Source: a virus. From it: a stretch of DNA of 23,092 bases. The stretch covers positions 1 through 23,092 of the IMG/VR virus record IMGVR_UViG_3300043499_000160; one strand, given 5' to 3'. Of the stretch, positions 3,618 through 23,092 are shown one piece after another (within the stretch, counting starts at the first letter, position 1; each line of letters opens with the position of its first letter). A program made the position numbers and the translations under genes. Below the pieces are notes generated by a model. That model had not been told where the DNA came from. It searched no databases and saw only the letters and a list, made by a program, of their open reading frames with translations.

Positions 3618-3962
3618 GTGGCGTTAGAAGATGATGTGAAAGCACTTACTACAGTTATCGCCGCTTTAGCAGCTAAATTGCCTGTGGGCGCGGCTACAAC
3701 TGCTCCGTCCACCTCTACGGCAGCAGCCACTCGCGGTCCTGGGCGGCCGAGAAAAGTGACTTTGGACGAGGTTAAGGTCGTTGCAAAACGGTTGATGGAC
3801 GAGCGGGGCGGCCCGGTTGCCCGTAAATTGATCGCAACGCACGTTGGGACCGAGAACGGCAAGCTGGCGGACCTGGACGAAAGCAAGTACGCGAATTTTA
3901 TCGCCGAGGTCGATGTACTCCTTGCTCAGCAGCCGGCCGAACACGCGGAATCGGATCTGTAG
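3618..3962 (+). CDS. Small AT-hook-like phage protein, 114 aa
   Basis: The start is GTG at 3618 with a strong GGAGG site six bases upstream. Residues about 1-20 are helical and hydrophobic/Ala-rich, about 21-38 are a low-complexity Ala/Thr/Ser linker, then RGPGRPRK (about 39-46) matches the GRP core of an AT-hook, a minor-groove DNA-binding motif. The C-terminal half (about 47-110) is a small helical module of a kind often seen at the ends of small phage DNA-metabolism proteins (pattern VxxxAKxLxDxxG...KLADLDxSKYxxFI). It is the first gene of the long rightward operon, ahead of the DUF2800 nuclease. A DNA-binding accessory role is reasonable, but one AT-hook match is weak evidence and the specific function is unknown. 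Confidence 0.75.
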   Translation: MALEDDVKALTTVIAALAAKLPVGAATTAPSTSTAAATRGPGRPRKVTLDEVKVVAKRLMDERGGPVARKLIATHVGTENGKLADLDESKYANFIAEVDVLLAQQPAEHAESDL

Positions 3963-3974
3963 CCGGTGGGCGGA

Positions 3975-5153
3975 ATGGCTATTTCATCGTTTCGACCTAG
4001 TTATTCCGCCACCTCTCTGTTCTGTGCCGGTTCACTCCTCCCTTCCCTCACCGCCGTGGATAAAGCGGGTTACGAGGCGGCTGAGGGCACGGTCTTCCAC
4101 GAGTTGATTGCTGAATGGCAAACACGCGGGCGGCCCGATCACTGGTTGGGGCAAACCAGGGAGGTTGATGGCTATACCGTCGAGATAGTCGAGGAAATGT
4201 TTACCCATGCAGAGGAATGCTTGACCCGTGCTAACGAGATCCACGGCGATCGGTATGTTGAGACACGGGTTGACCTAACCGCGATCACACCCATCCCCGG
4301 TCAAGGTGGTACGTGTGATCTGGCGTTCTGCCGACAGGGGATACTCGATATAACCGACTGGAAGTACGGTAAAGGTGTGCAGGTTTTCGCGTACAAGAAC
4401 ACGCAGTTGATGTTGTACGCTCTCGGTTTCTACTTCGAATTTAACCAGTTCTACGACTTCCAGCTAATCCGGATGCGGATCGCGCAGCCGCGTTTTAATC
4501 ACTGGGATCTCTGGGAGGTCCAAGTCGAAGAGCTACTGGAATTCGCCGACTGGGCGCGTGAGCGGTGGTCACTCGCATGGCAACCCGACTCTCCCCGTAC
4601 CCCAAGCCCGAAGGCTTGTCAGTGGTGCAAGGTGCGACTGACATGCCCTGCATTGGAGGTAGCGCGTCAAGCCCTGGTCGATCTCACTTTTGAGGTACTC
4701 GATGTGGACCCACGCCAACCTGTGCAGCCTGTTGCACCTGTAATCCCGCCCGCGATCGAGTTGACCACTACCCAGCTTGCCCAGATCTACCGATACCGCA
4801 AGCTCATGGAAAGTTGGTTTAGCGACATCGGCGACGAGTTGATAGCGCGTGGGCTAAGCGGAGAAGACCTGGGCGGTCAGTGGAAGGTCGTTGAGGGGCG
4901 ACCGGGGCGTCGTCGTTGGACTGACGAGGAGCAGGCTGTCCAGGCTTTCGATCGGATTGGGGTAGACCCATACGAAGTGAAACTCCGTTCGCCGGCTCAG
5001 GTTGAAAAGCTGGTTCGAGCGGCCGGGGTACGTGACCCCACACCATACGTGAACCTATTCACTGATCGTACTCCCGGTAAGCCGGCTCTCGTGCCGATCG
5101 GTGACGCTCGTGCCGATCTCCAGTCAGCCGTGGAGGACAGTTTTAATGGCTAG
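3975..5153 (+). CDS. DUF2800 family Cas4/RecB-like PD-(D/E)XK nuclease with Fe-S cysteines
   Basis: This is a phage exonuclease-type protein of the DUF2800/Cas4-RecB group. Counting from the ATG at 3975 (392 aa), the nuclease core shows H42 (GTVFHELI), D115 (GTCDLAF), D128 and K130 (ITDWKYGKG) and the QxxxY motif Q144-Y148 (TQLMLY). One N-terminal cysteine, C17, and the C-terminal set C215-x2-C218-x5-C224 (ACQWCKVRLTC) match the four-cysteine iron-sulfur arrangement of Cas4 and AddB nucleases. The ATG was preferred over an in-frame GTG at 3966 because family members begin near a (S/F)xPSxxxxxxxCxxS segment. The last 130 residues hold family-specific helices and an Arg-rich patch. It overlaps the next gene by eight bases. 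It likely processes DNA ends for replication or recombination with the DUF2815 partner downstream. Confidence 0.9.
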   Translation: MAISSFRPSYSATSLFCAGSLLPSLTAVDKAGYEAAEGTVFHELIAEWQTRGRPDHWLGQTREVDGYTVEIVEEMFTHAEECLTRANEIHGDRYVETRVDLTAITPIPGQGGTCDLAFCRQGILDITDWKYGKGVQVFAYKNTQLMLYALGFYFEFNQFYDFQLIRMRIAQPRFNHWDLWEVQVEELLEFADWARERWSLAWQPDSPRTPSPKACQWCKVRLTCPALEVARQALVDLTFEVLDVDPRQPVQPVAPVIPPAIELTTTQLAQIYRYRKLMESWFSDIGDELIARGLSGEDLGGQWKVVEGRPGRRRWTDEEQAVQAFDRIGVDPYEVKLRSPAQVEKLVRAAGVRDPTPYVNLFTDRTPGKPALVPIGDARADLQSAVEDSFNG

Positions 5154-5331
5154 GGTCTTCGCCACTCGGAATGAAGCGGAGTTGTACCGCTATACATTGC
5201 CACTGGCGGATCGGTGGGAGACGATACACTTTACCAGCAACATGGGGAGAGAGGGATACGTGATACGGCGTAAACCAAAGATGTGGCGTGAACCGGTGAA
5301 AGAGGTGGGCGATGTCAGACGTGATTGTTGA
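5146..5331 (+). CDS. Small hypothetical protein, 61 aa
   Basis: The ATG at 5146 lies inside the end of the nuclease gene and has GGAGG at 5132-5136, nine bases upstream. The protein is basic (starts MARVFATRNEAELYRY, with RRKPKMW near residue 40) and has no recognisable domain or membrane segment. Its stop overlaps the start of the DUF2815 gene by 20 bases, so translation is probably coupled. A reading frame of the same phase extends further upstream, but inside the nuclease gene. I cannot assign a function. Confidence 0.65.
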   Translation: MARVFATRNEAELYRYTLPLADRWETIHFTSNMGREGYVIRRKPKMWREPVKEVGDVRRDC

Positions 5332-5947
5332 GCGTAAGGTGTTACGAGAGGAAAAGTACGTTGTCACTTATAGTGACCAGAGCATCATGATTAAAGAGGT
5401 GCGGCTGTCGTATCCGCATCTCGACAAGCCTTGGGCAATGGGCGGGGATAAACCGAAGTACAGCGCATATGGGTTGATGCCTAAAACCCCGGCGTACGCG
5501 AAGTCGAAGGCTTTGATTGATGCTGCGATCCAGAAGATTGCGACCGATAAGCAGAGTCCGAATTTGCCGGCTACGCAGCGGTTTTTTCGTGACGGCGATG
5601 AGACGGACAAACGAAGCTTTAAGGGGCATTGGAGTATCAGTGCCAGCGAGGACACTCGTCCCGGTCTTCGCGGACGTGGTGTAGACCCGATCACAGGTCG
5701 GGCAAGGATGATCGCGCCGGAAGAGATAACAGAGGTGTTTTACCCCGGTTGTTGGGTGAACTTACTCGTAAAACCCTGGTGGCAATCCAATACATACGGC
5801 AAGCGGGTTAACGCCAACCTCGTCGCGGTACAGTTTGTGCGCGATGATCAGAAGATCGTTGGCGAGGGTCGTATCGGGGACGATGCGATCGATGATTCCT
5901 TTGGCGTCTTGCCCGAGGATGAGAGCGGCTTCGAGGATGACCTGTAA
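5312..5947 (+). CDS. DUF2815 single-stranded DNA-binding protein
   Basis: The 211-aa protein matches the DUF2815 family, regarded as OB-fold-type phage ssDNA-binding proteins. Seen in the sequence are the family-like segments RLSYPHLDKPW (about 31-41), the conserved KxFKGHWxIxASEDTRPG region (about 101-120), a PGCWVNLLVKPWW strand (about 144-156), the NANLVAVQFVRDD segment, and a strongly acidic C-terminal tail of about 25 residues, the typical partner-docking tail of phage SSBs. The ATG has AGAGGTGGG just ahead. It sits between the Cas4-like nuclease and the DNA polymerase, the usual order DUF2800-DUF2815-polymerase in many phages. It should coat ssDNA at the fork and recruit the polymerase or helicase. 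Confidence 0.9.
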   Translation: MSDVIVERKVLREEKYVVTYSDQSIMIKEVRLSYPHLDKPWAMGGDKPKYSAYGLMPKTPAYAKSKALIDAAIQKIATDKQSPNLPATQRFFRDGDETDKRSFKGHWSISASEDTRPGLRGRGVDPITGRARMIAPEEITEVFYPGCWVNLLVKPWWQSNTYGKRVNANLVAVQFVRDDQKIVGEGRIGDDAIDDSFGVLPEDESGFEDDL

Positions 5948-5951
5948 GTAG

Positions 5952-5995
5952 GATGGAGCAGGGATAGTTCGGGGGAGCGAATCCCTGCTCCCATC
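5952..5995 (+). promoter_or_regulatory. Strong hairpin after the SSB gene
   Basis: GGAGCAGGGAT (5955-5965) and ATCCCTGCTCC (5981-5991) form a perfect 11-bp stem with a 15-base loop; three more pairs (5952-5954 with 5993-5995) extend it past a single bulged C. No T-run follows, so it does not look like a standard intrinsic terminator. It may be an RNA processing or stability element, a translational control structure, or a protein-binding site. Confidence 0.55.
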
Positions 5996-6006
5996 GGGGC
6001 CGTGTG

Positions 6007-6036
6007 GCAACCGAGCGGTCCTACAACATCGGTTGC
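6007..6036 (+). promoter_or_regulatory. Second hairpin before the DNA polymerase gene
   Basis: GCAACCGA (6007-6014) pairs perfectly with TCGGTTGC (6029-6036) around a 14-base loop. It begins 12 bases after the first hairpin and ends 20 bases before the polymerase ATG, leaving the GGTGG ribosome binding site (about 6047-6051) outside the stem. It could tune polymerase expression; no U-tract follows. Confidence 0.5.
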
Positions 6037-6055
6037 ACTTCCTTACGGTGGATAG

Positions 6056-8122
6056 ATGCTGCACCTAGATTACGAAACAGCCTGTGACCTTGATCTACGA
6101 AAGGTCGGGCTGGACAGGTACAGCGCTGACCCTAGCTGCCGTGTTCATATGGCGGCCTACCGGATAGGTGACGGTCCCCTCGAACACTGGGAAGCGCATC
6201 TTGCTCCTTTTCCGAAACGGCTGAAAGAGGCGTTGTTAGATCCGGAGATCCCGAAGTGGGCGTTTAACGCGCAGTTTGAGCGGGTGATCACTCGTCGCGT
6301 CTTACGGATCGCGACCCCGCATCGCAACTGGCGTTGCACGATGTGCCTTGCCTACATGCAGTCCTTCACCGGGGGGCTTGCCGACATCGGAAAGCAAGTT
6401 GGGTTACCCCCGGACGCCCAGAAGCTGAAGACCGGTTCGGACCTGATCCGGATCTTCTGCATGCCGCAGAGGTTGAGCACCAATTTCACCAGTGAGTGGC
6501 GGAATTGGGTCACCGATCCGCATCTCTGGGAGGAGTTTTGCGAGTACAACAAGCAGGACGTATTGACCGAGGAAGCTATTAAGCGGCGATTGATCCAGTA
6601 CCCGGTTCCCCAGGACGAATGGGATTTCTACGAGCTAGACCAGATCATCAATGATCGTGGCATCCCGTTGGATTGGCTGTTTGTGGACAATGTCATCCGG
6701 CTGTCGGACTACCGGAAGCGGGAACTGCTTGACGAGATGTCGGCGATCACGGGTCTTGGTAACCCAAGTTCCGTTTCACAGTTACTTCCTTGGGTCCGAC
6801 ACCACGGCTACCCTTACCCCAACCTCCAGAAAGAGTTTATCGAGAAGGCGCTTACCCAGCATGGCCATGAGGGCGGAATGCTGACTGATGAGTGCGCTGA
6901 AGTCCTTGGGATGAGGCTGCTGGTCAGTAAGACGAGCATCAGCAAAGCGGATACGGCCCGGAAGATGGCGGGACCGGGTGGTCGGGTACGATTCATGTAC
7001 CAGTTTGCCGGTGCGTCCAGAACTGGCCGATTCGCTGGTCGTCACGTGCAGCCGCAGAACATGATTCGCACCCCGAAGATGTTCGATCCGGAGGACAACT
7101 ACGACAAACTCCAGATGGCGACGGACCTGATCCGCCAGGGCGACTATTCCGAGTTCGAGTTGTTCGTGAACGAGCCGATGCTGGCCTTCACCGGGGCGAT
7201 GCGCTCGATGTTCCGCGCACCCGAGGGTTACCAGTTGCTTGTTTGTGACTATTCATCGGTGGAGTCGGCCGGTCTGGGTTGGGTGTCACAGTGCCCTCGC
7301 CTCCTCAACGTCTTCCGTGATGGGCGTGACCCGTACAAGGATTTCGGCACCCTCTTCTTCGAAAAACCGTATGACCAGATCACGCGAGCGGAACGCAACA
7401 TCTGCAAACCACCCACGCTGGGGTGTGGCTACAGGCTGTCGGCCGGCACGGTGACAGAGGGCACCAAGACCGGGTTACTCCGGTACGCCGAGGGTATGGG
7501 GATTGAGATGAGCGAGGAGCAGGCCGAACGGGCTGTCTCGGTCTTCCGCTCCGGTTATCCCGAGATCCCGCAGTTCTGGTACGGCTGCGAGGACGCCATA
7601 AGGCAGGTTATGCAGACGCAGCGTCCATTCAACCTTGGCTACGTCCAGTTCGATTACCGTAAACCCTACCTGATGATCCGCCTGCCGAGTGGGCGGCACA
7701 TCTACTACTACAAGCCGCAACTGCGGATGAAGGAGATCAAGTTCAAACGGAAGCGTGGTTCCGTGGGTTGGACGGGCGCGGTTGACGAATGGGAAGTGAT
7801 CTGGCGGCGCGTCTTCAGCTACATGGGCCGCAAGCAGGGGACTACGAAGTGGGAGTTGGTCGATGCCCACGGTGGGGTGACGACGGAGAACATCGTTCAG
7901 GCACTAACCAGGGACATCTTGAAGGTGGGTTTGCGGCGATTGCATGAAGCCGGTTACAAGGTTGTCGGTCACTCGCATGACGAAGCAATCGCCATCGCGC
8001 CGATTGGTGACAATTACCATACCTTGGAACGTATGCGGGAATTGATGAGTGCTCCGATTTCGTGGGCACCGGGCTTTCCGCTCAATGCGACTGCGTGGCG
8101 TGGCGCATTTTATCGCAAATGA
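6056..8122 (+). CDS. Family A DNA polymerase with 3'-5' exonuclease domain
   Basis: This 688-aa protein is a T7/PolI-type replicative polymerase without a 5' nuclease domain. The proofreading exonuclease shows Exo I D5/E7 (LDYET), Exo II around N71-F74 (NAQFE), and Exo III around Y164-D168 (YNKQDVL). The polymerase shows the GRFAGR..QPQN region (about 324-335), motif A with catalytic D398 (VCDYSSVES), motif B with R447, K451 and Y459 (RNICKPPTLGCGY), and motif C with H641-D642-E643 (GHSHDEAI). All key catalytic residues are present, so the enzyme should be active. Length is normal for phage family A polymerases. The start ATG has GGTGG upstream and follows two hairpins. It is the core enzyme of the rightward replication block. 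Confidence 0.96.
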   Translation: MLHLDYETACDLDLRKVGLDRYSADPSCRVHMAAYRIGDGPLEHWEAHLAPFPKRLKEALLDPEIPKWAFNAQFERVITRRVLRIATPHRNWRCTMCLAYMQSFTGGLADIGKQVGLPPDAQKLKTGSDLIRIFCMPQRLSTNFTSEWRNWVTDPHLWEEFCEYNKQDVLTEEAIKRRLIQYPVPQDEWDFYELDQIINDRGIPLDWLFVDNVIRLSDYRKRELLDEMSAITGLGNPSSVSQLLPWVRHHGYPYPNLQKEFIEKALTQHGHEGGMLTDECAEVLGMRLLVSKTSISKADTARKMAGPGGRVRFMYQFAGASRTGRFAGRHVQPQNMIRTPKMFDPEDNYDKLQMATDLIRQGDYSEFELFVNEPMLAFTGAMRSMFRAPEGYQLLVCDYSSVESAGLGWVSQCPRLLNVFRDGRDPYKDFGTLFFEKPYDQITRAERNICKPPTLGCGYRLSAGTVTEGTKTGLLRYAEGMGIEMSEEQAERAVSVFRSGYPEIPQFWYGCEDAIRQVMQTQRPFNLGYVQFDYRKPYLMIRLPSGRHIYYYKPQLRMKEIKFKRKRGSVGWTGAVDEWEVIWRRVFSYMGRKQGTTKWELVDAHGGVTTENIVQALTRDILKVGLRRLHEAGYKVVGHSHDEAIAIAPIGDNYHTLERMRELMSAPISWAPGFPLNATAWRGAFYRK

Positions 8123-8133
8123 CGAGGGAAACC

Positions 8134-8325
8134 ATGATTACAGGTGACGCTGGGAGACGGTTGGAAGCTGCGCTGATCTACGGTTTCAGCGAGATGCCTG
8201 ACATCGCGACACTGTCGTTGCGGCAATTACAGATTATCGAGGACATCGCTCGCGCATTGGGGGAGCGCGACAAGATCATCGCTAAACTCGAAGCGGAGTT
8301 GCGCAATGCGGCAACCACGGATTAG
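8134..8325 (+). CDS. Small hypothetical protein, 63 aa
   Basis: The ATG at 8134 has GAGGGA five bases upstream; another in-frame ATG at 8119 overlaps the polymerase stop as ATGA, so the start could be five codons earlier. The protein is mostly helical, with a heptad-like charged C-terminal half (IIEDIARALGERDKIIAKLE) that may form a short coiled coil. No family is recognised. It overlaps the next gene by 20 bases. Confidence 0.65.
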   Translation: MITGDAGRRLEAALIYGFSEMPDIATLSLRQLQIIEDIARALGERDKIIAKLEAELRNAATTD

Positions 8326-8578
8326 TGGGTTCACGCTGTTCGAGCACCCCGGCAAGGGGTGGCAGATGTCTGTGCGGCGTAAAGATGAAACCGGATGGGA
8401 CGTGAAGATCATCCCCGCGGAACAGGCCGCGATGGTGCTCTCGATGCTGGAAGCTAGCGGTCACCCGGACGGCCCCTGGAAGGTGTCGCAGGGCAATCTC
8501 CAAGAGGAGATCTGGTACTTGACCGTGGCGGTTCGCCAGTTGACCGGAGCACTGAATAATATGGAGGAGGTAAAATGA
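8306..8578 (+). CDS. Hypothetical phage protein, 90 aa
   Basis: The ATG has GGAG seven bases upstream, inside the end of the preceding gene. The N-terminal half looks like a small beta-rich fold (FTLFEHPGKGWQMSVRRKD, then GWDVKIIP), followed by a helix (AEQAAMVLSMLEA) and a second C-terminal helix. It has no known motif. Its stop overlaps the next start as ATGA, so it is part of the same operon. Confidence 0.7.
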   Translation: MRQPRISGFTLFEHPGKGWQMSVRRKDETGWDVKIIPAEQAAMVLSMLEASGHPDGPWKVSQGNLQEEIWYLTVAVRQLTGALNNMEEVK

Positions 8579-9369
8579 CGCCCATCGCTCATTACCTCGC
8601 TAAACAGGTTTCATTGCCTAGACGTGAACGTACTATAGTTGACCCTGCACTATTGGATTTGGTCGAAGATATTCATTGTTTTGAGGTAACGGAGATACAA
8701 GAACTTGTGATGGATTTAGTAGAAGACGCTGAAACTACTAGTAGGATCGATACTAAACGTTTGTTTCTTCCCGCGCCAAGGACTTGGTTGGAGTGGGAAG
8801 CAAATCTCGGAGTCGATTCAGAATATCCGGAGTTAAGTAACCTGAAGAGGATGGCGGTTCTTTTAACCGAAGATGGTGAAAATATTTACTGTAAGTCAGT
8901 GTTTTATAGATCTCCGACTCAGATTAATTACGCCGAAGACCCCCGGATGAACTTTCGCAAGGATGAATTTGTTACCGCTGATCACATTTCCAAGGCGTTG
9001 ATTTATGCTGAACTCGCTTGTATCAACCATCCGAAGATAATCGGTAGGCGGCAACACATGCCGCACCGTGGGCTGGAGAAAAGACTTAATCAAACATTTG
9101 GTGTGGGCAAGTTCCCTCTCCACGCGTGGACGGAGATCAAGCTAGAGGTAACTCCAACGCTCGACGCCCGTCGCGATCTGTCGATCGAGGCACACTATAC
9201 CGGGAAACGCGCTCTGCACTTCTGCCGCGCCCACCTACGCTTGTGGAACGGAAAGTTGATTTTCGTATCGGCTCACTGGCGAGGTGATGGAGCGGTTGGG
9301 ATTAAGCGGTCAAGGTATAAAGTAGTTCAAGGGAAAGGTGCAAGCTTGAACAATATGGTAGGTGTGTGA
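8575..9369 (+). CDS. Conserved phage protein of unknown function, 264 aa
   Basis: The protein begins at an ATGA overlap with GGAGG upstream. The N-terminal 130 residues are acidic and unrecognised. The C-terminal 70 residues contain KRALHFCRAHLRLW, then SAHWRGD and GIKRSRYKV; this resembles a C-terminal signature I recall from phage hypothetical proteins (pattern (H/R)xxRGHxxxY...G..W.PAHxRG), which has no established function. The conserved His, Cys and Arg might form a binding or catalytic site, but that is only a suggestion. Base composition is uneven: about 8640-8950 is AT-rich compared with flanking genes while about 9060-9300 is GC-rich. It lies between the polymerase and methyltransferase, in a stretch of accessory genes. 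Confidence 0.75.
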   Translation: MTPIAHYLAKQVSLPRRERTIVDPALLDLVEDIHCFEVTEIQELVMDLVEDAETTSRIDTKRLFLPAPRTWLEWEANLGVDSEYPELSNLKRMAVLLTEDGENIYCKSVFYRSPTQINYAEDPRMNFRKDEFVTADHISKALIYAELACINHPKIIGRRQHMPHRGLEKRLNQTFGVGKFPLHAWTEIKLEVTPTLDARRDLSIEAHYTGKRALHFCRAHLRLWNGKLIFVSAHWRGDGAVGIKRSRYKVVQGKGASLNNMVGV

Positions 9370-9563
9370 TGAAGGAGAATCGTAGTCGGATTGAGCGAAA
9401 AGTCATCAGAGAGTTGCAGATCTTATTTGATAAATATTTTGATACTGATAGGGAAGTAGCAGGGGAAATCATGTGGGAGTTAATTCTTGAATACACGCAA
9501 AAATATGGGTGGATAATCGATGAATCGAATCAAATTGTTAAAGGTAAAATGAGTGCTTTTTAA
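9369..9563 (+). CDS. Small hypothetical protein, 64 aa
   Basis: The ATG overlaps the upstream stop as TGATG and has GGTAGG about seven bases upstream; a GTG codon directly before it could add one residue. The protein is a charged helical sequence (KVIRELQILFDKYF, then EIMWELILEYTQKY) ending in a basic tail. It is AT-rich compared with the genes that follow. No family is recognised. It overlaps the methyltransferase start by 11 bases. Confidence 0.65.
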   Translation: MKENRSRIERKVIRELQILFDKYFDTDREVAGEIMWELILEYTQKYGWIIDESNQIVKGKMSAF

Positions 9564-10140
9564 CGGGCTGCCGTTGGGCGTCTACGGGGCGATCCTCGCA
9601 GATCCCCCGTGGTCGTTCCGTATCTACAGTGGCAACGATACGACACCGCACCGTACCGCCGCCGAGCCGTACCCGGTGATGTCTATCGAGGACATCGCGG
9701 TTTTGCCCGTGGCCGATCTGGCGAGGCGCGATTGTGCCCTTTTCCTGTGGGTGGTCGATCCGCTGCTGGATGTGGGTATCGAGGTCGGTAAGGGTTGGGG
9801 GTTCCGATACAAGACCCGTGCCTTTGAATGGGATAAGGGCACGATCGGGATGGGCTATTGGACCCGGAAGGAGGGCGAATCCTGTCTGCTCTTCACCAGG
9901 GGATCGCCACCCCGATTGGACAAGGGCGTTAGGCAGTTCATTCGCGAACCGCGTAGGCAGCACAGCCGCAAGCCGGATGAAGTGTACCGGCGGATCGAAC
10001 GGCTAGTAGCGGGGCCATACGTCGAGTTGTTCGCCACACAGTATTGGGCTGGTTGGGACGGCTGGGGGCGAGATTACCCGCAGTCCGATTTGTCGAGCGC
10101 GCTCCAGGGACTGGCTAGGCGGATAGAGGGATTATGGTGA
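9553..10140 (+). CDS. MT-A70 family adenine N6-methyltransferase
   Basis: This 195-aa protein carries the DPPW catalytic motif at residues 17-20 (ILADPPWSF) and the MT-A70 pattern that follows: YPVMSIEDIAVLPV, ALFLWVVDPLL, GFRYKTRAFEWDKG, and the C-terminal REPRRQHSRKPDEVYRRIE plus YVELFATQ signature. It should transfer a methyl group from S-adenosylmethionine to the N6 of adenine in DNA. The GTG start at 9553 is supported by AAGG eight bases upstream and by the overlap with the previous gene. GC content rises sharply here relative to the preceding gene. In phages such enzymes are usually linked with protection from host restriction or with regulation; the target sequence cannot be read from the protein. 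The gene overlaps the VRR-NUC gene. Confidence 0.92.
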   Translation: MLFNGLPLGVYGAILADPPWSFRIYSGNDTTPHRTAAEPYPVMSIEDIAVLPVADLARRDCALFLWVVDPLLDVGIEVGKGWGFRYKTRAFEWDKGTIGMGYWTRKEGESCLLFTRGSPPRLDKGVRQFIREPRRQHSRKPDEVYRRIERLVAGPYVELFATQYWAGWDGWGRDYPQSDLSSALQGLARRIEGLW

Positions 10141-10415
10141 ACCGCAGTCAGCTTGAGAGTGACATCGAACGCCGGCATCGCCAGGAAGCGGTTATGGCTG
10201 GTTGGTTCGTGGAGAAGATTGAGCGCACCACACGAAACGGGTTTCCCGATCGATTTTACGCGAAGGATGGTCGGGTAGTCTTGTTCGAGTGGAAGCGGCC
10301 CGGTCAGCGTCTCACCCCACAACAGTTACTTCGTCACGATGAACTGCGGGCAGCCGGGGTTGAGGTTCATACGGTGTACTCGATCGATGAAGCTAACCAA
10401 ATCCTTGAGATATGA
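10134..10415 (+). CDS. VRR-NUC domain nuclease
   Basis: The 93-aa protein is a single VRR-NUC (PD-(D/E)XK) domain. The catalytic set is visible as D39 (GFPDRF), E52 and K54 (LFEWKRPG), with a conserved Gln at 63/64 (LTPQQLLRH) and the family ending GVEVHTVYSIDEA. The ATG has GAGGG four bases upstream and overlaps the methyltransferase stop; its own stop overlaps the helicase start as ATGA. Stand-alone VRR-NUC proteins are common in phage replication modules next to an SNF2-type helicase, where they are thought to cut branched or structured DNA. That role is inherited from family knowledge, not shown here. Confidence 0.92.
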   Translation: MVNRSQLESDIERRHRQEAVMAGWFVEKIERTTRNGFPDRFYAKDGRVVLFEWKRPGQRLTPQQLLRHDELRAAGVEVHTVYSIDEANQILEI

Positions 10416-11839
10416 CGTACCTAGAGGACGCTTTCGCCCAAGTGCGTTATACCGAGGGTGACCTACGGCCGGAACAGCGTGAGGCGATCGAGTTCGTCAA
10501 GGTCACGCCATTCAGTGCTCTGTACCTCGATGTCGGCACCGGTAAAACCGTTATCATCCTGTCCCTGATCGATTGGCTGTGGCTGCACGGCTACTACGGT
10601 AAGGTGTTGATCATCGCGCCGATCCGAGTGGCGACTCGCGTCTGGCCGTTCGAGCCAGGGCAGTGGTCGCACCTCGCGTATATGAGCACCACCGTCATCC
10701 GGATCGAGGATGATGACCCCAGGCTGAAGGGTCGCGGTTCTGCCCGGACCGCCGTGAAACACCAGCTACGTGAAGCGCTGTTGGACAGTTCTGACCAGAT
10801 CCACATCATCAATCAGGAAGCGGTCGATTGGCTTGTAGAGGTTTGCGCGAAGCGGAAGTCGTGGCCGTACCGGGTGGTGATATTTGACGAGTCTAGCCGG
10901 CTGCGTGACCACCGGAGCGTGACGTTTAGAGCGCTTCACCGGGTGCTGCCATACATCAAACGGTTTCATCAATTGACGGCTACACCGGCATCACAGACTT
11001 ACATGCACCTGTTCAGTCAAATCTACCTGCTGGACAAGGGTGAACGGTTCGGTAGGCGCATCACCCCGTTTCGGGAACGGTACTTTACGTATAACCACTG
11101 GGCCAGATCATGGAAGATCCGCGAAGGGGCGGCCCAGGAGATCGAGCGGAAGATCGCTGACATCTGTCTGGTGAAGCGCCGGGAGCGTGACTTCCAGATC
11201 AACGTTCGCCGGGTTCACCTAGCACCGCAACAGATGGCCGACTATTACCAGTTCGAGCGGGATCTGGTGCTCGACCTGGGGGACAAGGTTATTGACGGGG
11301 TTAACGGTGCTGTTTTGTGCGCGAAGCTGCTCCAGTACGCCAGCGGTGCCCTCTATGATGAGATGCGAGTCGTTCACGCGATCCACGATGAGAAGATCGA
11401 GGAGTTGAAGTCGATCGTGGACGAGACGATCGACCAGCCTTTGATGGTTGCCTACTGGTTCAAACACACGTTAGCTCGATTGAAAAAGGCTTTTCCGAAT
11501 GCGGTAGTGATGGACCGCGAAGGGAAGATGGAGGCTGAGTGGAATAGGCGAAAACATAAGATGATGCTGGTGCATCCGCAGAGTGTTGGGCATGGGATGA
11601 ACCTGCAATGGGGTGGTCATCATCTGGTTATCTTCGATCTGTTCTACTCATTGGAGCTATTCACGCAGTTGATTGGCCGGCTGGATCGACCAGGGCAGAC
11701 GAATACTGTGATGGTGCACCTGTTATCGGTTGCCCGTAGTCTCGATGAGGTAGTAGCATTCAACTTACAGCGACTTCGCAACGCTGAAGAATCGATGTTT
11801 CAGCGATTGCAGCAAATTCGGGGGAAACTACATGGCTGA
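10412..11839 (+). CDS. SNF2-type superfamily 2 DNA helicase/ATPase
   Basis: The 475-aa protein has the SF2 motifs in order: Walker A LDVGTGKT at 39-46, motif Ia-like IIAPIRV about 68-73, motif II FDESSRL with D159/E160, motif III TATP at 189-192, and motif VI QLIGRLDRPGQ at 419-429 with its arginine fingers. Motif II is DESS, the form often seen in phage SNF2 helicases, rather than DEAH. Length fits the compact phage type, with no extra N-terminal or chromatin-type domains. It is coupled to the VRR-NUC gene by an ATGA overlap and overlaps the RNR gene by eight bases. It probably remodels or unwinds DNA during replication or recombination. Confidence 0.94.
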   Translation: MTYLEDAFAQVRYTEGDLRPEQREAIEFVKVTPFSALYLDVGTGKTVIILSLIDWLWLHGYYGKVLIIAPIRVATRVWPFEPGQWSHLAYMSTTVIRIEDDDPRLKGRGSARTAVKHQLREALLDSSDQIHIINQEAVDWLVEVCAKRKSWPYRVVIFDESSRLRDHRSVTFRALHRVLPYIKRFHQLTATPASQTYMHLFSQIYLLDKGERFGRRITPFRERYFTYNHWARSWKIREGAAQEIERKIADICLVKRRERDFQINVRRVHLAPQQMADYYQFERDLVLDLGDKVIDGVNGAVLCAKLLQYASGALYDEMRVVHAIHDEKIEELKSIVDETIDQPLMVAYWFKHTLARLKKAFPNAVVMDREGKMEAEWNRRKHKMMLVHPQSVGHGMNLQWGGHHLVIFDLFYSLELFTQLIGRLDRPGQTNTVMVHLLSVARSLDEVVAFNLQRLRNAEESMFQRLQQIRGKLHG

Positions 11840-13646
11840 GCACTACGGTCCACGCACTGCATTTGGTCAGCTTCTTCATGCCTCCAAATACCGTGCAAAA
11901 GAGGAAAGGTTTGACGATTACTGTGTGCGCTGGTCGCGGGCTACAACCGACAATGACAAGGACTTCCGGCGGGCGCTGAGATACACGCGTGATCAGTCGT
12001 TGTTACCGGCAGGGCGGCAGCAACATTCAATGGGGCGACCATACCTGACCACGGCTTATAACTGTTTTGTCGGTGGCCTGATCCCCGATTCTTATGAGGG
12101 GATACTGGAGGCGCTGAAACTGGGCGGGATGACGCTTCGTACCGGGGGAGGCGTGGGTTGGAATTTCGACACGCTGCGGCCCGAGGGTGAAGCGATTCGA
12201 GGACTCGGGGAGGGGAGTTTCAGTAGCGGGCCGATCTCCTTTATGCGCGTGTGGGACATCAATTGCGAGACGATCCTGACGGCCGGTCATCGCCGTGGCG
12301 CTATGATGGGTACATTTAGCGTACACCATCCGGACATCCTGAAGTTCATCAGCGCAAAGCGCGGCACCGGCCAACTGAAGAATTTCAATATCAGCGTGAC
12401 GGTGACGGACACCTTCATGGAAGCCCTGGAGAAGGATGGGCTTTACCAACTTAGTTTTGGGGACACCAAATTTGGGGCCGTTCGCGCTGCGGATGTGTGG
12501 GCCAGGATCATGGAGTCGAACTGGGATTGGGCGGAACCCGGTGTGCTGTTTATCGACCGGATCAACGCTAGAAACCCGCTTTACTATTGCGAAACGATCT
12601 ATGCGACCAATCCTTGCGCCGAGCAGCCGTTGCCGCCAAACGGAGCGTGCCTCCTTGGTAGTTTGAATGTCGTCAAGGTGTTGACCCCGTCGCGCATTGG
12701 CAACGTGGTCGAGATGGCCCGCCCCGAAGGTTACGGTGTCGCGACGGATCACCGGATCGTTGACCCGCGTTCTTCGCGGTATGACATCGATTGGGAGTTG
12801 TTGGACGATCTGGTCGATACGGCAGTTCGTTGTTTCGACAACGTACCAGAACGCACCGTCTTCCCCTTGGAAGCCCAGCGGGAGGAAGCCCTGGCGAAGC
12901 GCCGCATGGGCATAGGCGTGACCGGCATGGCGAATGCGATCGAGATCATCGGGCACCGTTACGGATCGCCAGGGTACATCGCGATGCAGGATCAGATCCT
13001 CTGGCGGATCGCGCTTCAGTCTTACCGCACCTCGATTGAGTTGGCGAAGGAGAAGGGGAGCTTTCCCCTGTTCGATGCCGACAAATACCTTGATGGCTGG
13101 TTCGTCAAGAACTCGCTGACCGATGAGATCCGGGACGGTATCAGGCGGCACGGGTTGCGGAATGGGTTGTTGCTGTCGATCGCACCAACCGGGACGATCT
13201 CAATGGCGGCCGACAACCTGTCGTCGGGGATCGAGCCACCATACGCTATAGAGGGTAAGTACACGATCATCATGCCGGATGGAAAGCAAGTTTTCGACAC
13301 CGTAGACCACGCTTACGAGTTCTTCGGGGTCCGGTGCCAGACGGCCAACGAAACGACGGCGGAGCAACACGTAGACGTGTTGTGTGCGGCCCAACGATGG
13401 GTGGACAGTTCGATCTCTAAGACCTGCAACGTTCAGGGGCAGGTAGCTGGTCATGGACCGGGTGTCTCGTTTAACGATTTCAAGGGACTCTACATGCGCG
13501 CTTACGAGGGCGGCGCGAAGGGGTGTACCACCTTCAATACTAACGGTAAGCTTCAGGGGGTCCGGGAGGTTGTTGATACTAAGGTAGACGAGGGGGCCGC
13601 GTGCGTGATGGACGGTACAACCGGTTTGCGCTCGTGTGATTCCTGA
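11832..13646 (+). CDS. nrdJ: Class II (adenosylcobalamin-dependent) ribonucleotide reductase
   Basis: This 604-aa enzyme converts ribonucleotides to deoxynucleotides for phage DNA synthesis using coenzyme B12, and so needs no small radical-generating subunit. Key residues are visible: redox C78 (TAYNCFV), the active-site set N260-C262-E264 in NPCAEQPLPPNGACLLGSLN and its partner C273, the SIAPTGTIS phosphate-binding loop, and two C-terminal cysteines C591 and C602 as a possible re-reduction tail. No nrdB-like gene or nrdD-type glycyl radical motif is present, which supports class II. GGGGAA lies six bases before the ATG, and the gene overlaps the helicase end. The C-terminal pair is spaced CX10C. 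Likely B12 supply comes from the host or environment. Confidence 0.95.
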   Translation: MAEHYGPRTAFGQLLHASKYRAKEERFDDYCVRWSRATTDNDKDFRRALRYTRDQSLLPAGRQQHSMGRPYLTTAYNCFVGGLIPDSYEGILEALKLGGMTLRTGGGVGWNFDTLRPEGEAIRGLGEGSFSSGPISFMRVWDINCETILTAGHRRGAMMGTFSVHHPDILKFISAKRGTGQLKNFNISVTVTDTFMEALEKDGLYQLSFGDTKFGAVRAADVWARIMESNWDWAEPGVLFIDRINARNPLYYCETIYATNPCAEQPLPPNGACLLGSLNVVKVLTPSRIGNVVEMARPEGYGVATDHRIVDPRSSRYDIDWELLDDLVDTAVRCFDNVPERTVFPLEAQREEALAKRRMGIGVTGMANAIEIIGHRYGSPGYIAMQDQILWRIALQSYRTSIELAKEKGSFPLFDADKYLDGWFVKNSLTDEIRDGIRRHGLRNGLLLSIAPTGTISMAADNLSSGIEPPYAIEGKYTIIMPDGKQVFDTVDHAYEFFGVRCQTANETTAEQHVDVLCAAQRWVDSSISKTCNVQGQVAGHGPGVSFNDFKGLYMRAYEGGAKGCTTFNTNGKLQGVREVVDTKVDEGAACVMDGTTGLRSCDS

Positions 13647-19019: not shown

Positions 19020-22000
19020 GTGAACAACGGCTATAACCTTGCCCGCGTCTCCACTATGACCACTGGTCCCGGCACTATCACGCTTGGGACGGCAGCGCTT
19101 GGATATCTTTCTTTTGCTCAGTCCGGGGTGCCGGATGGTGCGGTGGTGTCTTACGGCATCGCCGATGGCATCAACAGCGAAGCGGGGTGGGGCGTCTATA
19201 GCGCTACCGGACCGACCCTAACCCGCAATGTGTACCGCTCGACCGGCGCCGGTAACAACACGCCGATCGCGCTCTCGGGTTCCGCCCAAGTGTTTATCTG
19301 CCCGCTCTCCGAGGATTTGGCAACGCTGTTGCCATTGACTGGCGGCGCGCTGAGCGGCGGTTTGAGCTTCGGTTCTGCGGTTGCCAACAGCCCAACCGAT
19401 CTATCTAGGCATGTTGCGTTATTTTCTAATAATTATGGGTTCAGTATCACCGCCAGTAGACAGAACTACGTTGTAACCGGCGGCAGCCATGAGTTTGTAA
19501 TTGATGGAAGTGACATAGCGTCAATTAATGCGGATGGTTTGCACGCTTATCGCGCCGGCATAAATACAGCGGGTCTTCCTTCTCAAGCCGACCTGCACGT
19601 CGGCCGCTCGGCTGCGACGGCGCGCAGCTACCACTCCATGACAGACGCCAGCAACGGCGAGTGGGCGTATATGGGGTCGTGGTCTGGCAACGTCGCCAGA
19701 TACGGCACCGACAAGAACGGCTCGGGGCTCATCCGCAATATTCAGTTCTTGGTCGGTGGCGTCGTTCAGTTGGACTATGGCGTTACCTCCCCCGGCAATT
19801 GGAAGTTCAATAGCCCTATAGCTGTAGGACTTGCGGGTCCGCGCCAAGCGTATTTCACCAGCACCGGCGCTAACAGCGCCTCGATCGTTATTGACAATGC
19901 TGCGGGCGGCAATCAAAGCAATATTACGTTTCAAGACCTGTCGAGCAACAAGTGGCAGATCGGCAAGCAGACCGACAATACTTGGTTCCAACGCGACAGT
20001 GTCAACGCCCTGAACTTTCTTACTGTATCCATCGCCGGAACTTTGGCGTTGGGAGAAAGCTCTCAGATACAAATCCCAAAGACCGGACTTGTTGGGTTTT
20101 CTGGTACTAGCTCGGCCTTTCCAGCCCTAAAGCGCGTCGCCGTCGAACTTCAGGTGCGGCTCGCCGATGATAGCGATTACGCATATATCTCAGCGTTCAC
20201 AGCTGCCCCAGGAACCTCTAATAACCAATTGGCGACTACAGCCTTTGTTCAAACCGCTGTCGTAACAGGTGGGGCGGATTATTTACCTCTAGTTGGCGGC
20301 GCATTAAGTGGACCGTTAATTGTACAGCCATCTAATCCAGTACCTTATCCTCTAGATATTATAGATAGTGGTTCTATTGGTCGTAGTGTATTGCGGATCA
20401 TAAACACCCCTTCCAACTGGGGTCTGTCGTTTGATCCGTTTTGGCCGGGTGTCAGCTTCAATAGTTACCATGATGGTGTGAATAAAAAGGCTTATAGTGA
20501 TGATTACAGCGGAGCCTTTTTCTTAAACCCGGCAACTGGAGCTTTGACATTTTCTAGTGGAAATGCTCCCGGAGCCGGTAATCCTGTTACAGAAACTGAT
20601 CGTTTGACCATTACGGTTACCGGACTTATTGGCATCAACAATCCAAACCCAACAGCCAATTTGACTGTAGGTGGTACCGCTTCGACCGCTCGCACCTACA
20701 ATATTATATCCGATGCCAGCAATAGCGAATGGGCTTACCTGGGAGATTGGGGCAAGACGGCGAACGTCGCCACTTACGGCACCGACCTGAACGGCTCGGG
20801 CGTTGCGCGCGATGTGAATTTTCTCCGTGCGGGCGCAACGGTAATGTCGCTAACCAGCGCGGGCATTACCGCAACAGATGCCCGGGTGGTGGTTTCTGGC
20901 ACGGTAACTGGCAATCATCTTAGTCATGTGAATATTGCTGGAACCTTTGCCAGTTCTACCACAAGCCCGCAAAGCCCATTGCTGATCAATCCTATCGTTA
21001 CGCCAACGGGGTCGTCAGGTAGTATCTACAGCGTCAACATTACGCCTTCGTTGTCTGGATCAACCAGAATAGCTACCCTCTATGGGGTTAACCATAATCC
21101 AAGAATTGAAGCCGGATACACTGGAGCGCAGACCACAACCGCGGCTGGTTTTGTTGCAGGGACCATAGCAAACTTTAGTGCCGGTCCTTCCCCAGCGACT
21201 ACCTATGGTTTCTGGTCGCGCTCGCAAGGCAGCGTTGGCAGCACCGGTGTGTTTACAAATGCCGGCATCCGAATTGACAATATCAACAATGGCGGATCGG
21301 GAACGGTAACTGTTAATAATTATGGTGTTTATGTATTTGTCCCCGGCCCGAATGCGTCGGCTGGCACTTATAACAATAGAGGTATATTCATTACGGGTAA
21401 TGGCGGCGTCGGGACCGGAACCCACGCGAATTATGCGATTTATAGCGACAGTACGGCCCCAATTTATGTCAACGCTAGGGTCGGGATCAAGACAACGACC
21501 CCCTTGGCTGATTTGCATATTGGGCAGGCGGTTGCGACGGCGCGCAGCTACAATATGACGATCACCACCACTAATAGCGAATGGGCGTATCTGGGGGATT
21601 GGTCCGGTAATGTGGTGCGATACGGCACCGACAATAACGGTGTTGGCCTCGCACGCGACGTCAGTATTATGCGGGGCGGCGCCGAGTCTATTCGCATTGG
21701 GCCGAACGGCTATGTAGGTATTAAGAGCCCCGTACCTAGCGTGCTTCTTGATGTTGTCGCACAACTGAACCAATCAGATACTATCCGGCTTACTAATACC
21801 TATGTTAGCGGTCCTGATGTTAGCGTTGGCGCAACAATTGAATGTGTAGGAGTGCGCGGCGACGGCAACAGCACTTTCGATGGTAGGTTCGCTGTCGGCT
21901 TCCGTCGCACTGATGGTAATCCGATAAACAACGAGTATGGAGGGTATCTCGGCACATTTGGGTTTGGCGGGCAATGGGGCACCGACCAGGGCTATGTAGC

Positions 22001-23092
22001 GGCAAAGCATCTATACTCGGCCTCAATCCGGGCGATGATCGAGGGGCCGTTCACTGCCGCCAACTCGATGCCGACTGCCCTGTCGTTCCGTACCGGCGCT
22101 GTTGGCGAGGACATCCGCGCGCCGAACACGTCTTTCGGCACCGAACGGATACGGATCACCAGCGCCGGCAACGTTGGGATCGGTAATTTCCCCACTATCC
22201 CACCGCAAGCTCTACTGCACATCGGCACGGCAGGGGCGACCGCCCGCAGCTATAACACCATGACCGACGCTAGCAACGGCGAATGGGCTTATATGGGAGA
22301 TTGGAGCGGTAACGTCGCGAGGTATGGGACCGATAAGAACGGCACTGGGGCGGCGCGCAATGTCCAGTTCTTGGTTGGTGGCGTTGACCAGCTGAATTAC
22401 GGTGTGTCACTAGCTAATTATTGGACTGCATTGAGCCCGCTTTATATATATGGCTTAGATGCGGCTAGTGGCGCGGCGTTAGTGCTCGGTAATAATGGCG
22501 GATACAACTCCTATATTGGCAGTTCGTTTTTTAACTTTAATACGTATTGGAATGGATCGAGTTATGTATATGGCCCGGGTAGCACCACCCAATGGGGCGG
22601 ACAATATGCGTTTGATCCACCTACTGGAGTTCACAGGTGGAGTATAACCGACGCAGGAGGTGCTACCGGGGCGGCGACTTCGCCTGTTACTGCTTTAGCG
22701 TTGAAGCGTATCGCCGGTGTCTCATTATTAACGATTGGAACCTGGGTCGATTTTACCGCCGCTTTTCCGGCATTGCGGGCCAACAGCAATTCACTGGAAG
22801 TGCGCCTCGCCGATGACAGCAACTACGCGCAGTTACGCGCTTCTACCCTATACGGTGATACGTTGGGTGGTCTCGCTATGGCGTATGCCCATGCTCAGTG
22901 GACGATGAGTTGTGCCGGTACAATCACTTGGGCCGGTTCCCGGTTAAGCTGGACCGTCCGGATTATCTGCATCCCGACATCGCAGCCGCTCGGAAGTTGG
23001 ATCGAGTTCAACCAACCGACGACCGACATCCCTGCCGCTCAGGTTTACGATGGTGTCGCGCGCAGTGTTGCCGGGGGCATATTGCTTAACTC
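19020..23092 (+). CDS. Long repetitive tail-fibre-like protein, 3'-truncated by the window
   Basis: A GTG at 19020, with GGGGGAG seven bases upstream, opens a frame that I translated through to the window edge without a stop: 1357 codons. Residues about 1-100 form a typical phage fibre N-terminal region (NLARVSTMTTGPGTITLGTA, YRSTGAGNNTPI). LPLTGGALSG (about 104-113) and LPLVGGALSG (about 422-431) are linker motifs common in tail fibres, as is NNQLATTAFVQTAV (about 401-414). A roughly 65-aa module (ATARSYxxMTDASNxEWAYxGDWSGN and YGTDxNGxGxARxVxF) occurs four times. FPAL...VRLADDSxYA occurs twice. The last 60 residues look like a compact C-terminal beta domain. It probably contacts the host surface. 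Composition is mosaic, with AT-rich inserts between GC-rich modules. The real C-terminus lies beyond the window. Confidence 0.88.
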   Translation, partial: MNNGYNLARVSTMTTGPGTITLGTAALGYLSFAQSGVPDGAVVSYGIADGINSEAGWGVYSATGPTLTRNVYRSTGAGNNTPIALSGSAQVFICPLSEDLATLLPLTGGALSGGLSFGSAVANSPTDLSRHVALFSNNYGFSITASRQNYVVTGGSHEFVIDGSDIASINADGLHAYRAGINTAGLPSQADLHVGRSAATARSYHSMTDASNGEWAYMGSWSGNVARYGTDKNGSGLIRNIQFLVGGVVQLDYGVTSPGNWKFNSPIAVGLAGPRQAYFTSTGANSASIVIDNAAGGNQSNITFQDLSSNKWQIGKQTDNTWFQRDSVNALNFLTVSIAGTLALGESSQIQIPKTGLVGFSGTSSAFPALKRVAVELQVRLADDSDYAYISAFTAAPGTSNNQLATTAFVQTAVVTGGADYLPLVGGALSGPLIVQPSNPVPYPLDIIDSGSIGRSVLRIINTPSNWGLSFDPFWPGVSFNSYHDGVNKKAYSDDYSGAFFLNPATGALTFSSGNAPGAGNPVTETDRLTITVTGLIGINNPNPTANLTVGGTASTARTYNIISDASNSEWAYLGDWGKTANVATYGTDLNGSGVARDVNFLRAGATVMSLTSAGITATDARVVVSGTVTGNHLSHVNIAGTFASSTTSPQSPLLINPIVTPTGSSGSIYSVNITPSLSGSTRIATLYGVNHNPRIEAGYTGAQTTTAAGFVAGTIANFSAGPSPATTYGFWSRSQGSVGSTGVFTNAGIRIDNINNGGSGTVTVNNYGVYVFVPGPNASAGTYNNRGIFITGNGGVGTGTHANYAIYSDSTAPIYVNARVGIKTTTPLADLHIGQAVATARSYNMTITTTNSEWAYLGDWSGNVVRYGTDNNGVGLARDVSIMRGGAESIRIGPNGYVGIKSPVPSVLLDVVAQLNQSDTIRLTNTYVSGPDVSVGATIECVGVRGDGNSTFDGRFAVGFRRTDGNPINNEYGGYLGTFGFGGQWGTDQGYVAAKHLYSASIRAMIEGPFTAANSMPTALSFRTGAVGEDIRAPNTSFGTERIRITSAGNVGIGNFPTIPPQALLHIGTAGATARSYNTMTDASNGEWAYMGDWSGNVARYGTDKNGTGAARNVQFLVGGVDQLNYGVSLANYWTALSPLYIYGLDAASGAALVLGNNGGYNSYIGSSFFNFNTYWNGSSYVYGPGSTTQWGGQYAFDPPTGVHRWSITDAGGATGAATSPVTALALKRIAGVSLLTIGTWVDFTAAFPALRANSNSLEVRLADDSNYAQLRASTLYGDTLGGLAMAYAHAQWTMSCAGTITWAGSRLSWTVRIICIPTSQPLGSWIEFNQPTTDIPAAQVYDGVARSVAGGILLN
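19587..19781 (+). repeat. Fibre module copy 1 (65 aa)
   Basis: It encodes ADLHVGRSAATARSYHSM followed by TDASNGEWAYMGSWSGNVA and RYGTDKNGSG, ending QFLVGGVVQLDYG. It is closest to copy 4 at the protein level and shares an exact 19-base stretch (19613-19631) with copy 3 (21533-21551). Confidence 0.85.
20118..20183 (+). repeat. FPAL/VRLADDS motif copy 1
   Basis: It encodes FPALKRVAVELQVRLADDSD followed by YA. The same pattern recurs at 22764-22829. Motifs of this type mark the end of shaft segments in many phage fibre proteins. Confidence 0.7.
20655..20852 (+). repeat. Fibre module copy 2 (66 aa)
   Basis: It encodes ANLTVGGTASTARTYNIISD, then ASNSEWAYLGDWGKTANVAT and YGTDLNGSGVARDVNFLRAG. It is the most diverged copy, with one extra residue in the GDWGKTANVA segment compared with GDWSGNVA in the others. 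Confidence 0.82.
21507..21701 (+). repeat. Fibre module copy 3 (65 aa)
   Basis: It encodes ADLHIGQAVATARSYNM, then TNSEWAYLGDWSGNVV and RYGTDNNGVGLARDVSIMRG. It begins 1920 bases after copy 1, a whole number of codons. Confidence 0.85.
22209..22403 (+). repeat. Fibre module copy 4 (65 aa)
   Basis: It encodes ALLHIGTAGATARSYNTM, then TDASNGEWAYMGDWSGNVA and RYGTDKNGTGAARNVQFLVG, ending DQLNYG. It nearly matches copy 1 in protein but differs at many third codon positions, so the duplication is old or under protein-level selection. Confidence 0.85.
22764..22829 (+). repeat. FPAL/VRLADDS motif copy 2
   Basis: It encodes FPALRANSNSLEVRLADDSN followed by YA, matching the earlier motif at 20118-20183, and precedes the putative C-terminal domain. 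Confidence 0.7.

Follow-up and report, generated by a model that had tools for sequence, protein, structure and literature searches.

The SSB-polymerase gap of a phage replication operon

What might two tandem potential hairpins contribute in the space between the SSB and DNA polymerase genes of a phage replication operon? We examined this in the rightward replication operon on the phage contig IMGVR_UViG_3300043499_000160, of which the whole analyzed stretch of 23,092 nt is here termed the window (Table 1). By eye in the ORF table, the intercistronic region is the sole sizeable gap of the rightward run 3618-13646, in agreement with the original prediction. It holds both of the perfect stems that this prediction had claimed, namely that of H1 (11 bp), to which three further pairs beyond a one-base bulge can be added (approximately 5952-5995), and that of H2 (8 bp). 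The spacing had been given as 12 bases; the distance is about 11 nt from the extended H1 and 15 nt between the perfect stems. Perfect stems of at least 8 bp with a loop of at most 20 nt are found at eight separate places across the window, two of which are inside this 108-nt gap, as against a by-hand chance expectation of ~0.04 places in 108 nt; H1 is the longest perfect stem of the window with such a loop. RNA folding of the 131-nt region gives −54.2 kcal/mol (z −2.5), a value equaled by 2 of 200 shuffles. No further copies of H1 or H2 were seen within the window, and positions 5900-6120 have no match to Rfam covariance models at E ≤ 1. The terminator scan lists neither hairpin; its loop range is limited to 3-8 nt, which H1 and H2 as drawn (15- and 14-nt loops, respectively) exceed.

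Table 1. Features of the SSB-polymerase junction and its flanking genes (window coordinates).
Feature	Positions	Strand	Basis
SSB gene, Enc34/T7 gp2.5 type, 211 aa, acidic C-terminus	5312..5947	+	PF10991 E 1.1e-23; phrog_112 E 5.8e-33
Intercistronic region, 108 nt	5948..6055	+	ORF table
H1, 11-bp perfect stem, 15-nt loop, starting 7 nt past the SSB stop codon, no U-tract	5955..5991	+	Stem search; compensatory changes in L002/L003 and L005/L007
H1 loop motif GGGGG(A/C)(A/G)C	5971..5978	+	Alignment: GGGGG and final C invariant, arms differing
Conserved block, 36 of 40 positions invariant	6000..6039	+	Five genomes (three sequence types); confident model R1 matches only in the clade, among the sources searched
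Alternative pairing of CCG (6000-6002) with CGG (6016-6018), putative	6000..6018	+	Energies; no covariation
H2, GCAACCGA / TCGGTTGC, 8 bp, 14-nt loop (15 in L002)	6007..6036	+	Stem search and relatives; absent from the window's minimum-energy and centroid folds
Polymerase-gene ribosome-binding site GGTGGA, probable	6047..6052	+	Read from the sequence
Family A DNA polymerase gene, 688 aa	6056..8122	+	PF00476 E 4.2e-11; phrog_17 E 3.3e-104

The H1 hairpin

Relatives were gathered from IMG/VR by a scan with the polymerase protein, from which the best 80 of 318 were taken, and by DNA scans for the H2 pattern; four contigs (L002, L003, L005 and L007) carry the H1 and H2 pair. In the polymerase scan, L002 and L003 stand at 92% polymerase identity and have identical junctions, and L005 and L007 stand at 76-77% and have junctions that differ by one base, so that the window and the four contigs make up five genomes and only three independent sequence types. 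For the comparison of H1 between the window and L002, the 5′ arms were aligned column by column and the 3′ arm was shifted by two columns for the stem register. Three of the 11 pairs (columns 13, 20 and 21) change on both sides and are still paired, six are unchanged, one carries a one-sided change that still pairs and one (column 17) is broken; three additional inner pairs are present in L002. L005 and L007 display wholly different arms that form a longer stem (by eye 14 pairs, including one G-U). RNAalifold reports eight pairs with double changes across the five rows, from an alignment that is imperfect at H1 and in which some pairs are broken. H1 is contained in both the minimum-energy and the centroid fold of the window. 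Compensatory changes in relatives, by which the original prediction proposed to judge the region, are found for H1 (the three double changes versus L002 and the new arms of L005 and L007) and not for H2, the arms of which are invariant in all sequences found. Judged from these comparisons, H1 is under selection as an RNA hairpin, since its arms have been rewritten with compensatory changes and its loop motif has been kept.

The earlier observation that neither hairpin is followed by a U-tract is upheld: the next bases are CATCGGGGC after H1 and ACTTCCTTACGG after H2, and the tract is absent after H1 from all three sequence types (tails TCGCGGTGA and GGGTGCCGT in the other two types, those of L002 and L005). 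The H1 stem has 7 G-C pairs out of 11 and is in this respect a G+C-rich stem-loop like that of an intrinsic terminator. Because the U-tract is missing, H1 is unlikely to function as an intrinsic terminator and is better seen as a 3′-end or decay-barrier structure or, in view of its conserved loop, as a hairpin that may be bound.

H2 and the conserved block before the polymerase gene

The H2 stem, which encloses the loop GCGGUCCUACAACA, can be lengthened to 10 bp if a G is bulged out (GTG...CAC). Against the 36 of 40 invariant positions of the block (6000-6039) stand pairwise four-fold-site identities in the clade of only 43-53% for the SSB gene and 45-61% for the polymerase gene. The codon-aligned SSB genes contain no 36-nt stretch with more than 28 identical columns, and 9 of 2026 36-nt windows of the codon-aligned polymerase genes reach 34. 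By these measures H2 is exceptional for non-coding DNA and not for all DNA, since some polymerase coding stretches are equally conserved. The H2 loop of L002 carries one inserted base that puts the conserved right arm into a different frame, so that protein coding does not explain the conservation of this arm; the same indel speaks against a rigid DNA operator with two half-sites. The end of H2 is separated from the polymerase ATG by 19, 15 and 19 nt in the three sequence types, and the block appears to be a sequence-specific RNA element adjacent to the ribosome-binding site of the polymerase gene.

For the window itself, the H2 stem is missing from the minimum-energy fold and from the centroid fold, the latter pairing the left arm locally, whereas the L002 and L005 RNAs do fold it. 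We compared the local energies of two forms, one (form B) in which the arm GCAACCGA pairs with TCGGTTGC to give H2 and the other (form A) a local CAA-loop hairpin closed by CCG/CGG. The values for B versus A are −16.4 versus −17.4 kcal/mol in the window, −17.3 versus −14.0 kcal/mol in L002 and −18.8 versus −18.4 kcal/mol in L005 and L007; the competing forms thus lie near each other in energy. In the order CCG - GCAACCGA - CGG - TCGGTTGC the segments would also suit an H-type pseudoknot, a fold that has both pairings at once; scored singly as duplexes, stem 1 yields −10.8, −5.2 and −7.0 and stem 2 yields −12.1. From these separate stem energies, it is possible that the H2 region forms an H-type pseudoknot with CCG/CGG as stem 1 and H2 as stem 2.

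With up to three mismatches, the H2 core is present in one copy in each of the clade's three larger records and absent from four other records. A covariance model of H2 scores its members (window, L002, L005 and L007) at 68-73 bits, with nothing else above 20 bits in 60 sources (59 of the 246 loci surveyed below and the window), and nothing convincing was recovered outside the clade from these sources and 10 whole records. Likewise, three H2-pattern scans of viral contigs returned no members beyond the same four contigs. Within the sources searched, the H2 element is restricted to the clade. Candidates that we rejected are an exact pattern match in L083, which lies in an unrelated context and scores 19.2 bits with the model, and 19 H2-pattern stretches in genome contigs, which we read as chance occurrences, the clade flanks being missing in the context inspected. 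An Rfam search of 15 relatives returned only a tRNA, in L004.

Stem-loops at the SSB-polymerase junction of related phages

The junction was surveyed in 247 sequences (the window and 246 loci, many of which overlap or share a contig), 192 of which have both genes. Merging of gaps more than 85% alike left 116 distinct gaps, 10 shorter than 24 nt, 74 of 24-200 nt and 32 longer, and only the 74 were tested, by comparison of a stem score with dinucleotide shuffles (a pass, p ≤ 0.05, meaning a score reached by at most 4 of 100 shuffles). This census replaces an earlier one made with local RNAfold, which was set aside as it over-extended stems and blurred the U-tract call. A stem-loop beyond the shuffles is found in 53 of the 74 distinct gaps and, by the same test on controls, in 0 of 42 gaps before the SSB gene and 9 of 30 after the polymerase gene. 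These counts are a guide and not independent trials, since the rows share descent, a rule was used to call start codons and control ORFs, and most control gaps are shorter (below 24 nt in 54 of 100 before SSB). A T-run of at least four stands at the stem end in 25 of the 53 passing gaps, and in five of the other 28 the run was counted into the stem; by these features, the junction stem-loop of the relatives often looks like an intrinsic terminator. The 21 gaps that miss the threshold include that of L002 from the window's own clade (p 0.059), those of L014, L020, L022, L025 and L029, which are terminator-like by eye, and those of L107, L197 and L199, with branched structures that the stem score cannot see. 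The SSB gene of the outgroup L191 runs into the polymerase gene with no gap, and the best stem-loop of L004 and L006 is not directly at the SSB stop. Stem-loops were also seen by eye after SSB in 14 loci with no downstream match to the window's polymerase, several of them near-identical (L198, L200, L202-L205, L207, L209-L211, L213, L214, L217 and L241). As judged from this survey, a stem-loop commonly recurs at the SSB-polymerase junction, yet is not universal, and annotators of this replication module may expect one, as a rule of thumb, 3′ of the SSB gene. H1 is like the terminator-like stem-loops after SSB in L026, L030, L120 and L219 in occupying the same junction and in being compact and G+C-rich; unlike them, it has no T-run following it and has a conserved G-rich loop.

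A further observation concerns the gaps of L107, L196, L197, L199/L233 and L208, which feature a branched RNA with a long closing stem of variable sequence (e.g., GAGGGGGCGGTC/GACCGCCCCCTC in L208) around a partly shared inner sequence. It has no Rfam match at gathering thresholds (L107, L196, L197, L199 and L208) and possibly constitutes a separate RNA family at this junction.

Proposed functions and alternatives

Our best reading is that both elements of the gap are cis-acting RNAs in the replication-operon mRNA. The specific assignment that we favor, with a probability of roughly 0.45, is that H1 is the clade's SSB 3′-end stem-loop and H2 a translational operator of the polymerase. H1 would be the clade's version of the stem-loop that recurs just past SSB in related phages and most likely serves as the 3′-end mark of the SSB message, where it would slow 3′ decay or trap processed ends, with the effect that SSB would be made in excess over the polymerase. 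For the earlier suggestion that the region sets the SSB to polymerase ratio, the census provides indirect support where H1 is concerned, in that junction stem-loops are position-enriched and often terminator-like. The block 6000-6039 would most likely fold as a hairpin or an H-type pseudoknot and serve, by binding a phage protein, as a translational operator. The obvious candidates for this protein are the polymerase and SSB, and the effect would potentially be to keep polymerase synthesis low when the polymerase is in surplus. Conservation in H2 extends equally to paired and unpaired bases, which a translational operator with a bound protein would lead one to expect, and we propose this role from position and analogy. 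A more elaborate version, which we hold to be rather unlikely, has 6000-6039 as a pseudoknot operator through which the family A polymerase or the gp2.5-type SSB represses polymerase translation, with the G-rich loop of H1 as a further contact.

One somewhat unlikely alternative, which we nevertheless take seriously, reduces the whole region to an SSB 3′-end stem-loop (terminator or decay barrier), the polymerase-proximal block being an initiation enhancer or standby site with no regulator. It accords with the census, wherein a junction stem-loop is common and often terminator-like, and with the placement of H2 15-19 nt before the start codon, but the 36 of 40 invariant positions, unpaired ones included, exceed what a standby site would be expected to need. 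We consider it improbable that H1 is an intrinsic terminator or attenuator with no clear U-tract and that H2 modulates termination by attenuation or processive antitermination: the position of H1 is homologous to that of the U-tract stem-loops of relatives and two exclusive folds are open to H2, but the U-tract after H1 is missing in all three sequence types.

The inverted repeat GCAACCGA-N14/15-TCGGTTGC is highly conserved and might on these grounds be read as a DNA site (operator, origin or promoter) at 6000-6039. We think this quite improbable in light of the spacer indel, the conservation of asymmetric flanks, the single copy (≤3 mismatches) in each of the three records searched, the lack of any promoter-like site in the SSB-polymerase gap in a promoter scan, the co-directional genes on either side and the adjoining hairpin that covaries as RNA. 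Translation of the region has the lowest standing and we regard it as very improbable, be it as a GTG-start leader peptide (MWQPSGP...) from 6002 or as SSB stop readthrough stimulated by H1. The codons GTG TGG CAA CCG AGC GGT CCN are common to all three sequence types, in a frame that ends beside the polymerase gene or runs into it; however, peptide conservation ends after seven codons, whereas in L002 the DNA is conserved again further on, in a shifted frame. Readthrough was rejected in that, of 58 gaps, 22 have at least 25 open codons in frame 0, 15 in frame 1 and 24 in frame 2, the frame after the stop being no more open than the others.

Comparison with known phage operators

The favored assignment, with H2 as a translational operator, has parallels in T4, in which, according to passages of two papers (PMC3014915, PMC535899), gp32 and gp43 repress their own translation via an mRNA pseudoknot and a hairpin, respectively. 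These passages place the gene 32 operator ~67 nt 5′ of the SSB gene itself, with an A+U-rich stretch containing UUAAA repeats after it (PMC3014915, PMC535899). In passages of the former, the gene 43 operator is a hairpin to which gp43 binds, 18 bases long in T4 and 16 in RB69; its loop is UAAC, and it precedes the start by ~40 bases (PMC3014915). Like the T4/RB69 gene 32 operator, the element described here is an mRNA structure 5′ of a phage replication gene for which an H-type pseudoknot is possible; unlike it, the element is downstream of SSB and upstream of the polymerase gene, is G+C-rich and lies 15-19 nt from the start, and an A+U-rich stretch of UUAAA repeats over the ribosome-binding site is absent here (6037-6055). 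Its likeness to the T4/RB69 gene 43 operator would lie in a candidate hairpin 5′ of a phage DNA polymerase start and near the ribosome-binding site (H2 at 6007-6036, ATG at 6056), one that is present in the sequence and absent from the window's own best fold; it differs in that the enzyme is of family A and the H2 loop GCGGUCCUACAACA is not of the UAAC kind. We see the likeness to the T4 operators as one of principle only, the elements not being homologous, and claim no membership. If a pseudoknot operator were indeed present, the T4 strategy, in which replication proteins limit their own supply through their mRNA, would have been invented a second time and independently. With a compact conserved RNA next to the polymerase start in an unrelated replication module, one can test whether this solution has been reached by other phages as well.

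Among the papers listed in a literature search on this phage group and on polymerase autoregulation, none is on the SSB-polymerase junction as judged by title or start of abstract; subscription papers and preprints were outside its scope, and absence of such work is thus unproven. Key-word passages of the Enc34 SSB paper (PMC5686142) and the JS26 paper (PMC8754663) hold nothing on this junction.

Additional observations

The polymerase genes of L005 (2462-5515) and L119 (1501-4527) display in-frame insertions of ~0.95 kb, which by their motifs look like inteins: they begin with CFxxDTLV, end with HN before C and occupy the same site (LGC^GYRL in L005 and LGC^TYQL in L119). At E ≤ 0.001, NCBIfam and Pfam return only polymerase families for these two proteins, and L007, with a junction one base from that of L005, has no such insertion.

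A near-palindrome, CGGAAGTWACTTCC, recurs many times with at most one mismatch in 8 of 13 records searched, those of L119, L109, L012, L018, L197, L208, L107 and L199 (G010, G011, G013, G014, G008, G012, G007 and G009, respectively), and at this threshold has no match in the window's clade (records of L003 and L007) or in L009, L194 and Carli. The 57-kb record of L119 has 35 forward and 35 reverse matches, mostly at the same sites, with 0 for reversed-pattern controls. In some gaps the repeat stands directly before a start codon, and these repeats recall dispersed phage repressor sites.

Toward the end of the window (19584-22405), a direct repeat in diverged copies of up to 200 nt occurs three to four times, at intervals of ~0.7-1.9 kb. 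The copies lie within a single long reading frame (19020-23090, 1357 aa), which runs off the contig end; judged by its position, its product is perhaps a tail or fibre protein in which domains are repeated.
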